Source of the DNA: Gluconacetobacter aggeris
Lineage (GTDB): Bacteria > Pseudomonadota > Alphaproteobacteria > Acetobacterales > Acetobacteraceae
DNA: 64,000 bases
Direction of reading: 5' to 3'
NCBI RefSeq assembly: GCF_014174395.1
Contig: NZ_JABEQD010000003.1
Coordinates: 248,001-312,000 of the forward strand
Shown: positions 54,807 to 60,343 of the stretch, piece after piece
Layout: each line of letters begins with the position of its first letter
Numbering within the stretch: the first letter of the stretch is position 1
Program-made: the position numbers and the translations under genes
Notes under the pieces: generated by a model
Seen by the model: the letters and a program-made list of their open reading frames with translations, nothing else
Database searches by the model: none
Told to the model about the DNA's origin: nothing

Positions 54807-54835
54807 AGCAAATGGCGCGGGAGCACAGTAATTCT

Positions 54836-57469
54836 ATGACCCTAAGGCGAAGCCTGATCGCAGCTACCATTCTTGCCATCCAGTGCGACGTCGCCAGCGC
54901 GATCGCTCAGACCGCCACGACATCCGCAGCCTCCACAACCGGCCACCGCACTGCCACGAAGAGCCGGAAAGTGACCAGCACGCCCGCCGTTTCCGCCGGG
55001 GCGCCCCCCGCTCCCATTCCCGCTGCAGCTCCCTATCAGGCACCGCCCGATGCGGGCGAAGCCGTGATCGTGACCGGCACCCACGACAGCAACCGCCACG
55101 CCCGCCAGAGTACTTCGCCGGTCTCGGTCGTGACCGCGGCCACCCTGACCCGTTCAGGACAATTGAACCTGGCTGACGCGCTGACGCGCACCTATGCCTC
55201 CATCAACATCCAGGCCAAAGGCAGCGACACCGCAGCCCTCACCTCCTCGATCCGCATGCGTGGCCTCAACCCCAATCAGGTTCTCGTCCTGGTCGATGGC
55301 AAGCGCCGTCACGTGACAGCCAACATTATCCAGAATTCCGGTCCGAGCTTCGGCGCAACCGGCGTCGACCTGAACATGATCCCCGCCAACATGATCGATC
55401 ATATCGAGGTTCTGGAAGATGGCGCGGCGGCCATGTACGGCTCGGACGCCATCGCCGGCGTGGTCAACATCATCACCAAGAAGACCAGCCACGGCCTCAA
55501 CGTTTCGGCGCAGACCGGCGCGAACGCCTATAACGGCGACGGCTGGCAATATCAGGTCAACGCCGATGGCGGGTTCAAGCTCGGCAATGATGGCTATATG
55601 CATCTGAGCGGACAGGTCTACCATACCGACCATTTCGTTCCGAAAGGTACCAAGGACCACCGTCTTCTCGGCTACTGGCCACAAGGGGCCACCACCAGCG
55701 GCTATTATAACGGCATCGTGGCCAACCCGCTCAAACTTCCCCTCGACTCGAACAAGATCATGAGCACGCCGGAAGAAACGCGCGAGAATCTGGGCATCGA
55801 TTTCGGAAAACCGATCGGCGAGAAGGTCGATTTCTACGGGCAGATCACCTACGGCCACCGTCATGCGGAAGCGATCCAGAACTACCGCATTCCGACCATC
55901 GCGCCGACGCTCTACCCCGCCGGCTTCTCGCCTTTGGAAACGATCGAGGAAAATGACTACGCGGCCATGCTCGGCATCAAGGGCCACGATTTCCTCGGGT
56001 TCGACTGGGACCTCAGCACCCAGTATGGCGCAGATGAAGACAATATCGGCAACAAGCACACAGCCAATCCGGGGCTGCTGAGCAGCCGATGCAACAATGG
56101 TAACGTCGCGAACATCTCAACCACCGGCTGCGGCTATTCGCCGACCACAGTACACACCCAGAGCTACCGCAACGCCCAGTGGACCAACAATCTGGACTTC
56201 CGGCGGCATATCGACATCTTTCACACCGTACCGATGACCCTGGCCTTTGGCGGCGAACATCGCCTGGAAACCTACGAAATCGTGGCCGGCGAACCCGCCT
56301 CCTACGAAGTCGGCGGCACGCAGGGCTATGTCGGCATCGCGCCGCAAAGCGCCGGCAACTGGAGCCGCGACATCTGGGCCGCCTATATCGACGGCGATTT
56401 CCGTCTCCTGAAGAACTGGGATCTCGATTTCGCGGGACGTTTCGAGCATTATACCGATGTCGGCAATACCCAGAACGGTAAGGTCTCGACCCGCTACGAC
56501 ATCACGAAGCGGATTGCCTTACGTGGCACCATCAGCACGGGCTTCCGCGCCCCCACGATGGCGGAACAGCATTTCAGCACCATGAGCGTCAGCCCGACAG
56601 GTGCGGCCGGCCTGCTCCCCGTCAGCTCCGCCGCGGCCGCGCTTCTCGGTGCCCAGCCGCTGAAACCGGAATATTCGGTCAATGCCAGCGGCGGCCTCGT
56701 CGTCGAACCGGTTGATGGCTTTCATGTCGAAGCGGACGTCTACCAGATCAACCTCCGCAACCGTATCGGCCAGGGCGGCGTGACCAAGGGGCTGACCGCG
56801 ATCAATGCGATCCAGGCGATGGGCTATGTCCTGCCGGTCAACGATATCGATCCGCAGAACGTCTCGGCCTATTATTTCGCCAATATCGGCAGTACACGGA
56901 CTCAGGGCCTCGACATCAAGGCCGACTACACGTTCCACCTGCACCGTTACGGCAATCTGATGCTCTCCATGGCGCTGGACCTGAACCGCACACGCCTGCA
57001 TCATGCCGCCACAGATGCGAATGGCAGGTCCTTGCTCAATGCCCAGACTATAGGATATCTCACGACCGCCTATCCGCGCAGCAAGATCATCCTGAATGCC
57101 TATTATACAATCGGGAAATGGGACATCAACGTCCGCCAGACCCGATACGGCGAGACGACGGATATGATGACCTATCAGGACTGGACGAACGGCGCGCTCA
57201 CCTGCGCCAGCGGCGGCGCCCTGCGCTACTCCAATTCGTGCTTCGGCCAGTTCAAGAACACGCCGCGCTGGCTGACGGATCTCGAAATCGGCTATCGTTT
57301 CGACCGTCACTGGCATTTCGCGATTGGCGCGAATAACGTCTTCAATGTGCGCCCGCGCCGGCTGCCCGATATCCTCAATAGCGGCGGCACCGCCGTGTAT
57401 GACGCCAGCTCGTCGCAGGTCCCTATCACGGGTGGGTATTATTATGGGCGCGTGAATGCCACATTCTGA
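54836..57469 (+). CDS. TonB-dependent outer-membrane receptor
   Basis: This receptor of about 877 residues has a signal peptide (LRRSLIAATILAIQCDVASAIAQ), a Thr/Ser/Pro-rich linker of about 40 residues, and a TonB-box-like EAVIVTGT. The plug domain follows (SPVSVVTAATLTRSGQLNLADALTR, SSIRMRGLNPNQVLVLVDGKRRH, MYGSDAIAGVVNIITKK). The barrel ends YYYGRVNATF with the terminal Phe needed for barrel assembly. I prefer ATG 54836, preceded by GGGAG, to ATG 54812. The next two genes encode an exported amino-acid-oxidase-like flavoprotein and a cytochrome c, so the ligand may be a peptide, amino-acid conjugate or cell-wall fragment; this is inference. A hairpin follows the stop. Confidence 0.88.
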   Translation: MTLRRSLIAATILAIQCDVASAIAQTATTSAASTTGHRTATKSRKVTSTPAVSAGAPPAPIPAAAPYQAPPDAGEAVIVTGTHDSNRHARQSTSPVSVVTAATLTRSGQLNLADALTRTYASINIQAKGSDTAALTSSIRMRGLNPNQVLVLVDGKRRHVTANIIQNSGPSFGATGVDLNMIPANMIDHIEVLEDGAAAMYGSDAIAGVVNIITKKTSHGLNVSAQTGANAYNGDGWQYQVNADGGFKLGNDGYMHLSGQVYHTDHFVPKGTKDHRLLGYWPQGATTSGYYNGIVANPLKLPLDSNKIMSTPEETRENLGIDFGKPIGEKVDFYGQITYGHRHAEAIQNYRIPTIAPTLYPAGFSPLETIEENDYAAMLGIKGHDFLGFDWDLSTQYGADEDNIGNKHTANPGLLSSRCNNGNVANISTTGCGYSPTTVHTQSYRNAQWTNNLDFRRHIDIFHTVPMTLAFGGEHRLETYEIVAGEPASYEVGGTQGYVGIAPQSAGNWSRDIWAAYIDGDFRLLKNWDLDFAGRFEHYTDVGNTQNGKVSTRYDITKRIALRGTISTGFRAPTMAEQHFSTMSVSPTGAAGLLPVSSAAAALLGAQPLKPEYSVNASGGLVVEPVDGFHVEADVYQINLRNRIGQGGVTKGLTAINAIQAMGYVLPVNDIDPQNVSAYYFANIGSTRTQGLDIKADYTFHLHRYGNLMLSMALDLNRTRLHHAATDANGRSLLNAQTIGYLTTAYPRSKIILNAYYTIGKWDINVRQTRYGETTDMMTYQDWTNGALTCASGGALRYSNSCFGQFKNTPRWLTDLEIGYRFDRHWHFAIGANNVFNVRPRRLPDILNSGGTAVYDASSSQVPITGGYYYGRVNATF

Positions 57470-57542: not shown

Positions 57543-58814
57543 ATGACCAATCGAAACAGAAATATCGGGCGGAGGCATCTTGTCGCCGGCGCCTCCGCCT
57601 CCAGTCTCGTCGGGGCACTCGCTGGCAGCCGCCTCCTCCATGCCCAGACCCCACCTGTCTCTCCAGCTCAGGCTTTCACGCCACAAAAGCCGCGTATCAG
57701 GCTTCAGCCATTCGACCTGCGTGCCGATCAGATCACCGACATCAAGGTCTGCCTGCGCCCTTTCCGTCCGATGGGGCCGCGCTTTGATGTCGAACGCGTG
57801 GGGAACAAACTCGTTTTCCATAATTACGGGCACGGTGGCAGCGGGTGGTCCCTTTCCTGGGGGTCGGCGAGCCTGGTGGTCGAGAAGGTCTCCACCACCC
57901 TGCAACGCAAAGTCGCGGTGATCGGCTGCGGCATCATAGGCCTCACCACCGCCCTGACGGCGCAACGCGCCGGATTCGACGTCACGATCTATACCAAGGA
58001 CCTCCTGCCCCGGACCCGCTCGGTTCGTGCCAATGGTAGCTGGACACCGGATTCCCGTATTTCCCTGACGGCACCCGCAGGGCCGGGCTTCGCCGATCTG
58101 TGGGAAAAGATGGCGCGGATATCATGGGCCACCTACCGCGACTATCTCGGCCTTCCCGGTAACCCTGTCGAATTCATCGAACATTTTGTGCTGTCCGACC
58201 GGCCGTTCAACACACCCCACGAGGAAGGTCCGGATGGTCGCACGGGCGATTATGCATCCACCGGCATGCCCCAGCATGGCACGGAGTTCGCGCGCTATTC
58301 GGATCGCATCAAGGATATCGTGCCGACGGCTGAAGAGCTACATCCGTCGGAAAATCCCTTTGCCGCCCCCTATGCCAAGCGCAACACCCTCATGCTCTAC
58401 AATTTCGCCTCCTATGGGCATCTGCTGATGTCGGAATTCTTCCAGGCAGGCGGGCATGTCGTAATCCGGGAGTTCCACGACCCCAGCGAACTGACTTCCT
58501 TGCCGGAGAAGGTCATCATCAATTGCCCCGGCTATGCGGCACGCGACTGGTGGAACGACAAGAGCCTGATCCCCGTCAGGGGGCAGACCGCCTGGTTGCC
58601 CCCCCGTCCGGACCTCCCGTACGGCCTGCATTATCAGGGCGCCTCAGCAGTCTCAAAGACGGATGGACTGATGGTTCAGGCATACGACCTGAATAACGAA
58701 GGAGAAATGGGCAGCATCGGAAATTCCTTCGAACATCCGGACCGTTCCGAATCGGAACGGGCCATCAAGGTTCTGGCAGACCTATTCGCCCGTTCGCCCC
58801 TTTCGGAAGGCTGA
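57543..58814 (+). CDS. Tat-exported D-amino-acid-oxidase-like flavoprotein with permuted domain order
   Basis: This 423-residue FAD protein is related to D-amino-acid oxidase (DAAO), which oxidises D-amino acids to imino acids. A twin-arginine signal (GRRHLVAGASASSLVGALAG) predicts folded export to the periplasm. Residues 71-115 contain LRPFRPMGPRFDVER and HNYGHGGSGWSLSWGSA, which in canonical DAAO are the C-terminal substrate-Arg and FAD-clamp motifs. Only then, at 124-150, comes the Rossmann FAD motif VAVIGCGIIGLTTAL, which canonically is N-terminal. The middle part continues in normal order (VRANGSWTPDSRISL, VIINCPGYAARDWW, IPVRGQTAWL), and the protein ends where the canonical C-terminal motif would begin. 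The cytochrome c gene starts three bases after the stop, so electrons probably go to the respiratory chain. The substrate is not proven. Confidence 0.8.
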   Translation: MTNRNRNIGRRHLVAGASASSLVGALAGSRLLHAQTPPVSPAQAFTPQKPRIRLQPFDLRADQITDIKVCLRPFRPMGPRFDVERVGNKLVFHNYGHGGSGWSLSWGSASLVVEKVSTTLQRKVAVIGCGIIGLTTALTAQRAGFDVTIYTKDLLPRTRSVRANGSWTPDSRISLTAPAGPGFADLWEKMARISWATYRDYLGLPGNPVEFIEHFVLSDRPFNTPHEEGPDGRTGDYASTGMPQHGTEFARYSDRIKDIVPTAEELHPSENPFAAPYAKRNTLMLYNFASYGHLLMSEFFQAGGHVVIREFHDPSELTSLPEKVIINCPGYAARDWWNDKSLIPVRGQTAWLPPRPDLPYGLHYQGASAVSKTDGLMVQAYDLNNEGEMGSIGNSFEHPDRSESERAIKVLADLFARSPLSEG

Positions 58815-58817
58815 CTC

Positions 58818-59288
58818 ATGCCCCGCAAGTTTTTTTTTCGCCTCATGCGTTCAGGCCCGTTGGGCGCAATGGCCCTGTACGTAGCCTCCGCCTCCCCGCT
58901 TCACGCCGCCAGGCCCGCGGCCTCCTCGATTCCGTCATTCTCTGCCGAGCAGGCGCAAAGCGGAGCGGATCTCTACCAGAGAGCCTGCGCCATGTGCCAC
59001 GGTGCCGATCTGAGTGGAAATTTCCAGACACCGTCCCTCAAAGGACGGCTGGTGGCAAGCTGGGCCGGAATTCCCCTTTCGCGCCTGACGGGCTATATCC
59101 AACGTGCCATGCCACTGATGGCTCCCGGCACGCTGTCGCCGGAAGATGCCACCGCCCTGGTCGCGTTTCTCATGCGTGAAAACGGCGCGTCTCCAGCCAA
59201 GACCGCATTACCGGTCACGGAAAAACGTCAGGCATCCCTCAAATTTCCCGCATTGGCCATACAGCCCGACACATCGCCCTCAAAATAG
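58818..59288 (+). CDS. Class I cytochrome c, partner of the flavoprotein
   Basis: This 156-residue periplasmic monohaem cytochrome has a signal peptide (MRSGPLGAMALYVASASPLHA), the haem site CAMCH (Cys57, Cys60, His61) and a likely axial Met in IQRAMPLMAPGTLS (Met98 or Met101). The pattern GADLYQRACAMCHGADL and LSPEDATALVAFLM is typical of c-type subunits that serve dehydrogenases. The C-terminal 35 residues are polar and possibly disordered. It lies three bases after the flavoprotein gene and would accept its electrons and pass them to a quinone or terminal oxidase, as in other periplasmic dehydrogenases of acetic acid bacteria. A strong hairpin follows the stop. Confidence 0.88.
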   Translation: MPRKFFFRLMRSGPLGAMALYVASASPLHAARPAASSIPSFSAEQAQSGADLYQRACAMCHGADLSGNFQTPSLKGRLVASWAGIPLSRLTGYIQRAMPLMAPGTLSPEDATALVAFLMRENGASPAKTALPVTEKRQASLKFPALAIQPDTSPSK

Positions 59289-59400: not shown

Positions 59401-59706
59401 TCAGGCGAAGACCCTGTCGGTCGCCGCACAGAATTTCTTCATCTCATCAGCCGATCCGACCGTAATACGCGACATATTGGGCCAGATCGGCCAGCTCCGA
59501 CCGATATCGATCCCCTGCGTGGCGTACTGCTCCTTCACATGGCGGGCAGGCTGGTTCCAGTTCACCAAGAACATGTTGGCATTGCTGGGGATGAACGCGA
59601 TCTTGCGCTGCTGGCCGTTCGCTACCCCCACAATCACCGGTGATGGGGTTCGCTCCATCACCAGGCTGATGATCGCGGATCCACAGGTCACTCCCCTGAT
59701 AAACCA
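59401..59706 (-). pseudogene. C-terminal remnant of a histidinol-phosphate-aminotransferase-like PLP enzyme
   Basis: About 95 codons remain. IAFIPSNANMFLVNWNQPARHV, GIDIGRSWPIWPNMSRITVGSADEMKKFCAA match the last third of class I/II aminotransferases of the HisC-like type (small domain, with the phosphate/carboxylate-binding Arg in RITVG). The frame stops upstream at about 59707, so the PLP-lysine domain is gone. Its terminator (59304-59342) is intact. An original pairing with the adjacent amino-acid oxidase would be sensible, for example in converting the keto acid product, but that is inference. Confidence 0.7.
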
Positions 59707-60135
59707 CTACAAGACACCCCTCCCCGCCGACCGCCTGGACCATGTCCCCGCATCCGGCGAAAGGGTCGTTCTCGGCACGGTCGCCTCCCTGCGCGTCGAC
59801 GGGCGTTATGAAAATGCCATGCGACTGAACATTCCGGATCTCGAACAGAAGGTCGAGGCCATCGCACATTCGATGAACGGCTGCCATTTTGGCCGCCTGG
59901 ACGGACGCTTCAGCAGCGAAGACGCCCTAAATCGGCGAGAATTCAAGATTATCGAGCTCAATGGTGCCGGATCGGAAGCCAGCGAATTCCGGGACCCGAC
60001 ACTGAGCCTGTGGCGGCCTATCGCGGCGTCTTCGCCAAACAGAAAACCCTGTTCGAGCTGGCGGCCGAAATGCGTAATGCCGGCCACATCCCAATCGGCA
60101 TCGCTCCTCTCTTTCGCACACGCTACGGCAATTGA
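59687..60135 (+). pseudogene. Frameshifted remnant of an ATP-grasp carboxylate-amine ligase-like enzyme
   Basis: VTPLINHYKTPLPADRLDHVP and ASGERVVLGTVASL are followed by GCHFGRLDGRFSSEDAL and FKIIELNGAGSEASEFRDPTLSL. This is the C-terminal half of a D-Ala-D-Ala-ligase-like ATP-grasp protein, with the Asn that normally binds magnesium in ELNGAGSE. Near 60008 the frame shifts: the same protein continues as AYRGVFAKQKTLFELAAEMRNAGHIPIG in another frame to a TGA at 60133-60135. The N-terminal half is missing at a junction close to 59687, exactly where the aminotransferase remnant also breaks off. Confidence 0.65.
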
Positions 60136-60343
60136 GATTGATACGCCACTACCCCCGTCAAGTTGAGGGGCAACCAAACAGATCGGACTTAGCCCAAACC
60201 CATCAGGGCCTGAAGCTCCCGGTTTCGATCAGGTTTTTCACGGCCAAACCACGCATGCGCGCGCCCGAAGAGTCATTCATGTGGCGGGTGAACAATCCGA
60301 ACCATGAAGCGTTATCAGGACAACCACTCCCGGAGTCCCCACG

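Follow-up and report, generated by a model that had tools for sequence, protein, structure and literature searches.

A natural circular permutation of D-amino acid oxidase, with a Tat-type N-terminus and an adjoining cytochrome c gene in acetic acid bacteria

D-amino acid oxidase (DAAO; EC 1.4.3.3) is a textbook flavoenzyme. Its canonical members (Pfam PF01266; PDB 7ct4, 2du8, 1dao and 1c0k) share with the protein described here the Rossmann GxGxxG motif, the carboxylate-binding Arg of RPxRP and the HNYGHGGxG motif. D-aspartate oxidase (DASPO) is a eukaryotic, intracellular enzyme. In acetic acid bacteria, periplasmic flavin dehydrogenases with cytochrome c subunits oxidize sugars and alcohols, and these enzymes have other folds.

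We analysed a window of 64,000 nucleotides from Gluconacetobacter aggeris (contig NZ_JABEQD010000003.1, positions 248,001 to 312,000), to which all coordinates of this locus refer. The gene at 57543..58814 on the + strand, with an ATG start, encodes a DAAO-type FAD protein of 423 residues, termed P0001. Its relocated DAAO C-terminal element (57714..57905, + strand; residues 58-121) contains, in order, a strand, the RPFRP motif (residues 72-76) with R72, the HNYGHGGSG motif (residues 93-101) and the C-terminal helix. The DAAO body that follows (57906..58811, + strand; residues 122-423) keeps the normal order, from the Rossmann GxGxxG motif (residues 128-133) to the helix after which canonical DAAO continues with the RPxRP strand. 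The original prediction had placed both C-terminal motifs ahead of the FAD motif VAVIGCGIIGL; their positions and the order are confirmed, and only the end of the FAD motif is corrected, from residue 133 to 134 (true span 124-134). Compared with the bacterial DAAO signature as given in PMC9844085, P0001 has the GxGxxG motif, the RPxR motif with its Arg and the YGHGGxG motif of DAAO and DASPO. DAO (PF01266) is the sole Pfam family above cut-off (2.1e-20), and its match to the native order falls in two stretches, the better of which aligns residues 123-415 to positions 1-297 of the 353-position profile. Similarly, a phmmer search of the PDB with the native order ranked D-amino acid oxidases first with the pieces swapped: on 7ct4_A, query residues 69-123 aligned to 325-379 and query residues 115-356 to 17-246. 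As a DadA-type enzyme, P0001 scored far below the cut-offs of PRK12409 and PRK00711 (42.6 versus 494 and 34.6 versus 383 bits, respectively), and neither ThiO nor any other NCBIfam family reached its cut-off among the best 25 of the 79 matched.

For a rotation scan, P0001 was taken from residue 45 and rotated in steps of two, and each rotation was compared, by global alignment without end-gap penalties, with five DAAO homologues of canonical order (L053, L105, L106, L107 and L109), which are actinobacterial records from a plasmid collection and are identified as DAAOs by homology alone. From 94.8 in the native order, the mean score climbed to 160.2 when the sequence started at residue 123, against 9.4 +/- 3.3 (maximum 20.8) for thirty shuffles, so that the comparison of native and rotated order called for by the original prediction came out on its side. 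Four remote homologues peaked at the same place, with scores rising from native order to best rotation in Niveispirillum L049 (159 to 226), Rhizobium L051 (164 to 253), Nonomuraea L050 (171 to 248) and L009 (197 to 291). The best start fell at residues 79-85 of the trimmed sequence in all five permuted members rotated, and the five canonical controls all peaked at most seven residues from their native ends. Moreover, rotated P0001 matched Pfam DAO in a single stretch covering positions 1-352 of 353. Since HMMER adds up local pieces whatever their order, the accompanying gain was small (77.8 bits versus 74.0 in the native order), and the informative part of this test is the single full-length stretch, not the bits. 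A phmmer search of the PDB with the rotated letters (without residues 1-44) gave no gain (7ct4_A, 3.6e-11 versus 3.5e-13 in the native order) and counts neither way, since phmmer adds local pieces in either order. A HMMER rotation scan with a five-sequence canonical profile did not distinguish the rotations (best-piece scores all 30-38), because HMMER splits the query into local pieces; hence global alignment was used.

In the alignment to L106 (trimmed numbering), S418, five residues before the C-terminus of P0001, aligns with residue 255, where the helix ...RRCTELLPEL ends, and the relocated segment of P0001 resumes at residue 256, which precedes the strand leading into GLRPxR. The new ends thus lie in one loop, that from the last helix to the RPxRP strand. 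At the other side, the old C-terminal helix (SASLVVEKVSTTLQ) runs via a short linker into the first Rossmann strand, an arrangement in which the old C-terminus (the helix after HNYGHGG) would have been joined to the old N-terminus. The loop with the new ends is expected to lie at the surface, and the DAAO fold with its FAD and carboxylate site would be retained. Altogether, the rotation, the Pfam match, the common cut and the homologues with the same order agree, and there is very little doubt that the P0001 family is a natural circular permutation of DAAO, as had been predicted.

Homologues that share the order are widespread. Relatives of the window genome gave 18 loci with 61-97% identity. 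In its own genus, eight of 14 genomes carry the permuted gene, five of them in two copies. Among 150 genomes of its family, eight match at E <= 1e-80 (nine matches) and G094 at 3.2e-28; 46 genomes in all match at E <= 0.001, the remaining matches being short and weak. At E <= 1e-20, 15 of 385 genomes of the class match; in the phylum 20 of 398 do so, one of them outside the class and five also included in the class count. The permuted order was found in all 16 loci of the class search and in the 15 new loci of the phylum search. The named carriers are Gluconacetobacter, Komagataeibacter, Acetobacter, Kozakia, Niveispirillum, Rhizobium, Bradyrhizobium and Mesorhizobium, in addition to Nonomuraea, an actinomycete. 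Loci with a clear permuted gene, alphaproteobacterial ones and those of Nonomuraea, make up a set of 50, in which one Niveispirillum plasmid gene is counted twice (L049 and L117). Under its strict motif pattern the set omits L126 and L142, which read separately are permuted, and L135, the gene of which was read as L096; also omitted are a broken copy in G. tumulicola (L034/L079), the partial L048 and a split Mesorhizobium gene (L108). Scans of viral sequences gave matches confined to three contigs, and in the plasmid search the full-length Burkholderia matches listed were in canonical order.

A canonical DAAO query against 299 sampled genomes of the phylum (E <= 1e-12) matched seven, and all seven matches fell on permuted genes; this search scored up to seven candidates per genome, and an absence of canonical DAAO there is not thereby proven. 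As the canonical query matched permuted members only, parts of the alphaproteobacteria may have the permuted form as their common DAAO. A tree was built from 49 rows, rotated and canonical, from which eight near-copies were dropped and to which L144 and L145 were added; in it, the five canonical sequences stand on one side of a branch (100/100), and a lineage of 30 rows with an SGWSLSWG-like motif forms a separate branch (100/100). This topology is compatible with a single origin of the permutation, which is not proven by it because all canonical rows are actinobacterial and the branch of L137 is very long.

Several members deserve separate mention. An in-frame stop separates the HNYGHGG element from the Rossmann part in L034 and L079, which come from Gluconacetobacter tumulicola and a genome nearly identical to it. 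On a plasmid of Mesorhizobium onobrychidis, the permuted gene L108 (4001-5064) carries the annotation of two CDS that overlap; the break, a frameshift or a natural split, falls just within the Rossmann motif. The rhizobial L051, L054 and L108 adjoin a TPP-dependent enzyme, and L051 and L054, which look cytosolic, also adjoin a BBE-type FAD oxidoreductase, which suggests a second role for the cytosolic-looking rhizobial members. In L127, L141 and L143, all from one family, an hslU-like ORF (by eye) follows the permuted gene; in L143 the 55-residue N-terminal stretch of this ORF had no Pfam match, and an hslV-like ORF, the start of which matches Pfam Proteasome, precedes the permuted gene, as if the latter were inserted in an hslVU operon. 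On an IMG/VR contig (L144 / L150, 1420-2454), the permuted gene is flanked by ORFs that by eye are terminase-like and portal-like, a setting that resembles a gene transfer agent head cluster. A general link to gene transfer agents was discarded, as terminase and portal queries found no such neighbours in 30 other loci.

The predicted structure agrees with the family assignment. The second AlphaFold model, of the mature part (387 residues), was built from a shallow alignment of 17 rows including two remote viral-contig members; it has a mean pLDDT of 62.7 and a pTM of 0.69, with 153 residues at or above 70 and residues 310-387 below 50. A first model from a 15-row alignment (pLDDT 46.2) was dropped. 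By title, 29 of the chains at Foldseek ranks 1-33 are DAAO or DASPO, and the other four are chains of 4qfc and 4qfd, presumably human DAAO. The best is 6rkf (human DASPO; E 3.3e-10), and TM-scores normalized by query length are 0.33-0.49 over these ranks. The model and its Foldseek matches support predicted membership of the DAAO/DASPO family rather than a particular packing of the relocated piece. In addition, a profile search of the PDB with alignment A1 found nothing but DAAOs and D-aspartate oxidases at E <= 1e-10 (17 sequences; best 1.6e-36, with 6rkf second); none of these 17 matched end to end in one stretch, and none is permuted.

The N-terminus of P0001 (MTNRNRNIGRRHLVAGASASSLVGALAGSRLLHAQ) resembles a Tat signal with an AxA-like site at its end. 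Read by eye, the signal region (57543..57647, + strand; residues 1-35, ending NIGRRHLVAGASASSLVGALAGSRLLHAQ) comprises a twin Arg, a hydrophobic core and an AxA-like end, and shows no lipobox; a Tat signal added at the new N-terminus had been anticipated, and a Tat-type N-terminus is indeed present. By its sequence type, P0001 is probably a Tat substrate and probably binds FAD, and in acetic acid bacteria such a signal would lead the folded enzyme, loaded with FAD, to the periplasm. A twin Arg was found by pattern in 46 of the 50 loci, two of which (L033 and L051) are not signal-like by eye. Permuted members lacking a Tat-type N-terminus are L050, L054, L138 and, from its annotated start, L051, so that export and permutation are separable events. 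Outside the acetic clade, a lipobox-like motif (e.g. LAGC) follows the twin Arg in 20 of 30 loci, which suggests that these are Tat lipoproteins; within the clade the lipobox pattern matched L031 and L032 only, in our view by chance. The very divergent permuted member L137 / L076 (G282) has a Sec-like N-terminus by eye and keeps the active-site Tyr.

R72 of P0001 pairs with the Arg of canonical GLRPxR, and this Arg is kept in all 50 loci. Alignment to 8hy5 puts R72 on chain residue 306, which would correspond to Arg283 of DAAO provided that 23 of the 370 residues of the chain are a tag; the HMMER alignment to 1dao instead pairs R75 with Arg283, and both R72 and R75 are invariant in alignment A1. 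By our own assignment from an aligned YxxPR motif, the Tyr corresponding to Y228 of mammalian DAAO is kept in 14 of the 50 loci, those of rhizobia and Nonomuraea among them; the other 36 have a replacement, which in P0001 is Ser (GASAVSK). We do not treat this Tyr as a requirement for DAAO, because PMC9844085 reports that it is not conserved in bacterial DAAO. Given its replacement in P0001, the enzyme may act on something other than free D-amino acids.

The gene neighbourhood bears on the function. A small c-type cytochrome of 156 residues (58818..59288, + strand; Cytochrome_CBB3, 2.1e-13; CAMCH at residues 57-61) starts 3 bases beyond the DAAO stop codon. A gene for a CxxCH protein lies directly 3' of the permuted gene in all 20 loci of acetic acid bacteria in the set of 50, often touching or overlapping it (overlap in L006, the same as L136), and none was found within 900 bases downstream in the 30 loci outside the acetic clade; the pairing is therefore not needed for the permuted fold. 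Further downstream in the window, an ORF at 59477-60166 has no Pfam match and may be a decayed gene. On the same strand, 73 bases upstream of the DAAO gene, lies a gene for a TonB-dependent receptor of 885 residues (54812..57469, + strand; TonB barrel 3.1e-38, Plug 4.5e-22). Homologues of this receptor occur near the permuted gene in the Gluconacetobacter loci L031-L033, directly upstream with 98% identity in L031, and also in L128 and L140. Receptor, enzyme and cytochrome are assumed here to share one transcript; between 54500 and 59500 the + strand showed no sigma-70-like promoter, and of six terminator-like stems found, against 4.0 expected, one is at 57422-57436, close to where the TonB gene ends.

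On this basis, we lean slightly towards the permuted DAAO of acetic acid bacteria being a periplasmic, cytochrome-c-coupled D-amino acid dehydrogenase. In such an enzyme, Arg72 would hold the carboxylate of a D-amino substrate, a hydride would pass to FAD and the imino acid would hydrolyse. Electrons from FAD would then reach the respiratory chain through the small cytochrome c encoded by the next gene, and the upstream TonB receptor might import the substrate through the outer membrane, either as such or as part of a peptide. The explanation as a whole, a permuted DAAO exported by Tat, acting as a cytochrome-coupled dehydrogenase and fed by TonB, appears to us reasonably probable.

A second copy in the same genome (L055) suggests where the substrate may come from. 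This paralogue of the permuted enzyme lies in a cluster that begins with a divergent class A beta-lactamase-like gene, the permuted enzyme, a cytochrome c and a LysR regulator, and goes on with a class C beta-lactamase-like gene, a DadA-type dehydrogenase, a penicillin amidase (5.9e-180) and an S9 peptidase. The first seven genes are present in all seven Gluconacetobacter genomes examined that carry this copy, and the S9 peptidase falls within the examined stretch in six of them; G123 and G135 gave enzyme and cytochrome only with the cluster queries used. The Kozakia set comprises class C-like, DadA and S9 genes, the permuted enzyme, a cytochrome c, a CocE/NonD hydrolase and a TonB receptor. 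The neighbours of the paralogue and of the Kozakia gene suggest D-amino acids that are set free from peptides or from beta-lactam-like compounds; a supply from peptide or beta-lactam side chains, and uptake through TonB, are speculative. In a more tentative reading, somewhat short of probable, the permutation founded a widespread bacterial family whose form in acetic acid bacteria became a Tat-exported, cytochrome-c-coupled D-amino acid dehydrogenase. It would be a new periplasmic entry point for respiratory electrons, fed by TonB receptors and by amidases of the periplasm that free D-residues from peptides or from natural products resembling beta-lactams.

The same neighbours also favour a changed substrate: in place of a free D-amino acid, the enzyme would act on an amine or on a D-residue belonging to a peptide, an ester or a beta-lactam side chain. 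Besides the loss of the carboxylate-side Tyr in 36 of the 50 loci, the paralogue cluster with its class A and class C beta-lactamase-like genes, penicillin amidase, S9 peptidase and DadA, and the Kozakia S15/CocE hydrolase with its TonB receptor, would fit such a change, which we consider rather unlikely, given that the carboxylate Arg is invariant over the set and that bacterial DAAOs without this Tyr are reported in PMC9844085. Slightly less likely still is a true periplasmic oxidase that passes electrons to O2 and yields H2O2, the cytochrome c serving elsewhere, for example in peroxide removal or an unrelated electron step. The nearest solved relatives are indeed DAAOs and D-aspartate oxidases, and the permuted enzyme does without an adjacent cytochrome in all 30 loci outside the acetic clade; however, an independent role for the cytochrome sits poorly with a gene that adjoins the enzyme gene, often touching or overlapping it, at every acetic-clade locus. 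We continue to favour the cytochrome-coupled dehydrogenase.

As for the permutation itself, an HNYGHGG-like motif is short, and an unrelated N-terminal domain might carry one by chance in front of a DAO domain without its C-terminus. That explanation is highly improbable: a profile of the element from the 50 permuted loci matches the C-termini of all five canonical DAAOs (1.8e-15 to 2.6e-19), five remote members share one rotation optimum, and the rotated Pfam match forms a single stretch. A second copy of the C-terminal element, which would have spoken against a permutation, was found at the C-terminus of none of the 50 permuted loci including P0001 (best chance match E = 0.82). An assembly or annotation artefact can be dismissed almost outright, the same order being found in many independent genomes and plasmids.

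Among the open-access papers listed by our searches we found no description of a permuted DAAO, and the main text of PMC9844085 has no word beginning with 'permut'; a description elsewhere is possible. Four annotated records of members are all named just 'FAD-dependent oxidoreductase', and searches that expect RPxRP and HNYGHGG at the C-terminus would miss permuted members. A natural permutation of so familiar a flavoenzyme allows fold order, stability and FAD loading to be compared.

Compared to canonical DAAO, P0001 is collinear over nearly the full length once rotated, and differs in polypeptide order, in its Tat-type signal and in the active-site Tyr lost in its lineage; the permuted genes of acetic acid bacteria differ further in having an adjacent cytochrome c gene. 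D-aspartate oxidase 6rkf has the canonical order, unlike P0001. DadA (NCBIfam PRK00711/PRK12409) belongs to the same PF01266 superfamily and has a dehydrogenase role, with the canonical order and one DAO stretch, and DadA-type genes occur in both the paralogue and the Kozakia clusters. The periplasmic flavin dehydrogenases of acetic acid bacteria are likewise exported flavoproteins encoded beside a c-type cytochrome gene, and if the cytochrome link proposed for the permuted DAAO is true, it would add a D-amino-acid branch to the periplasmic oxidations of these bacteria.
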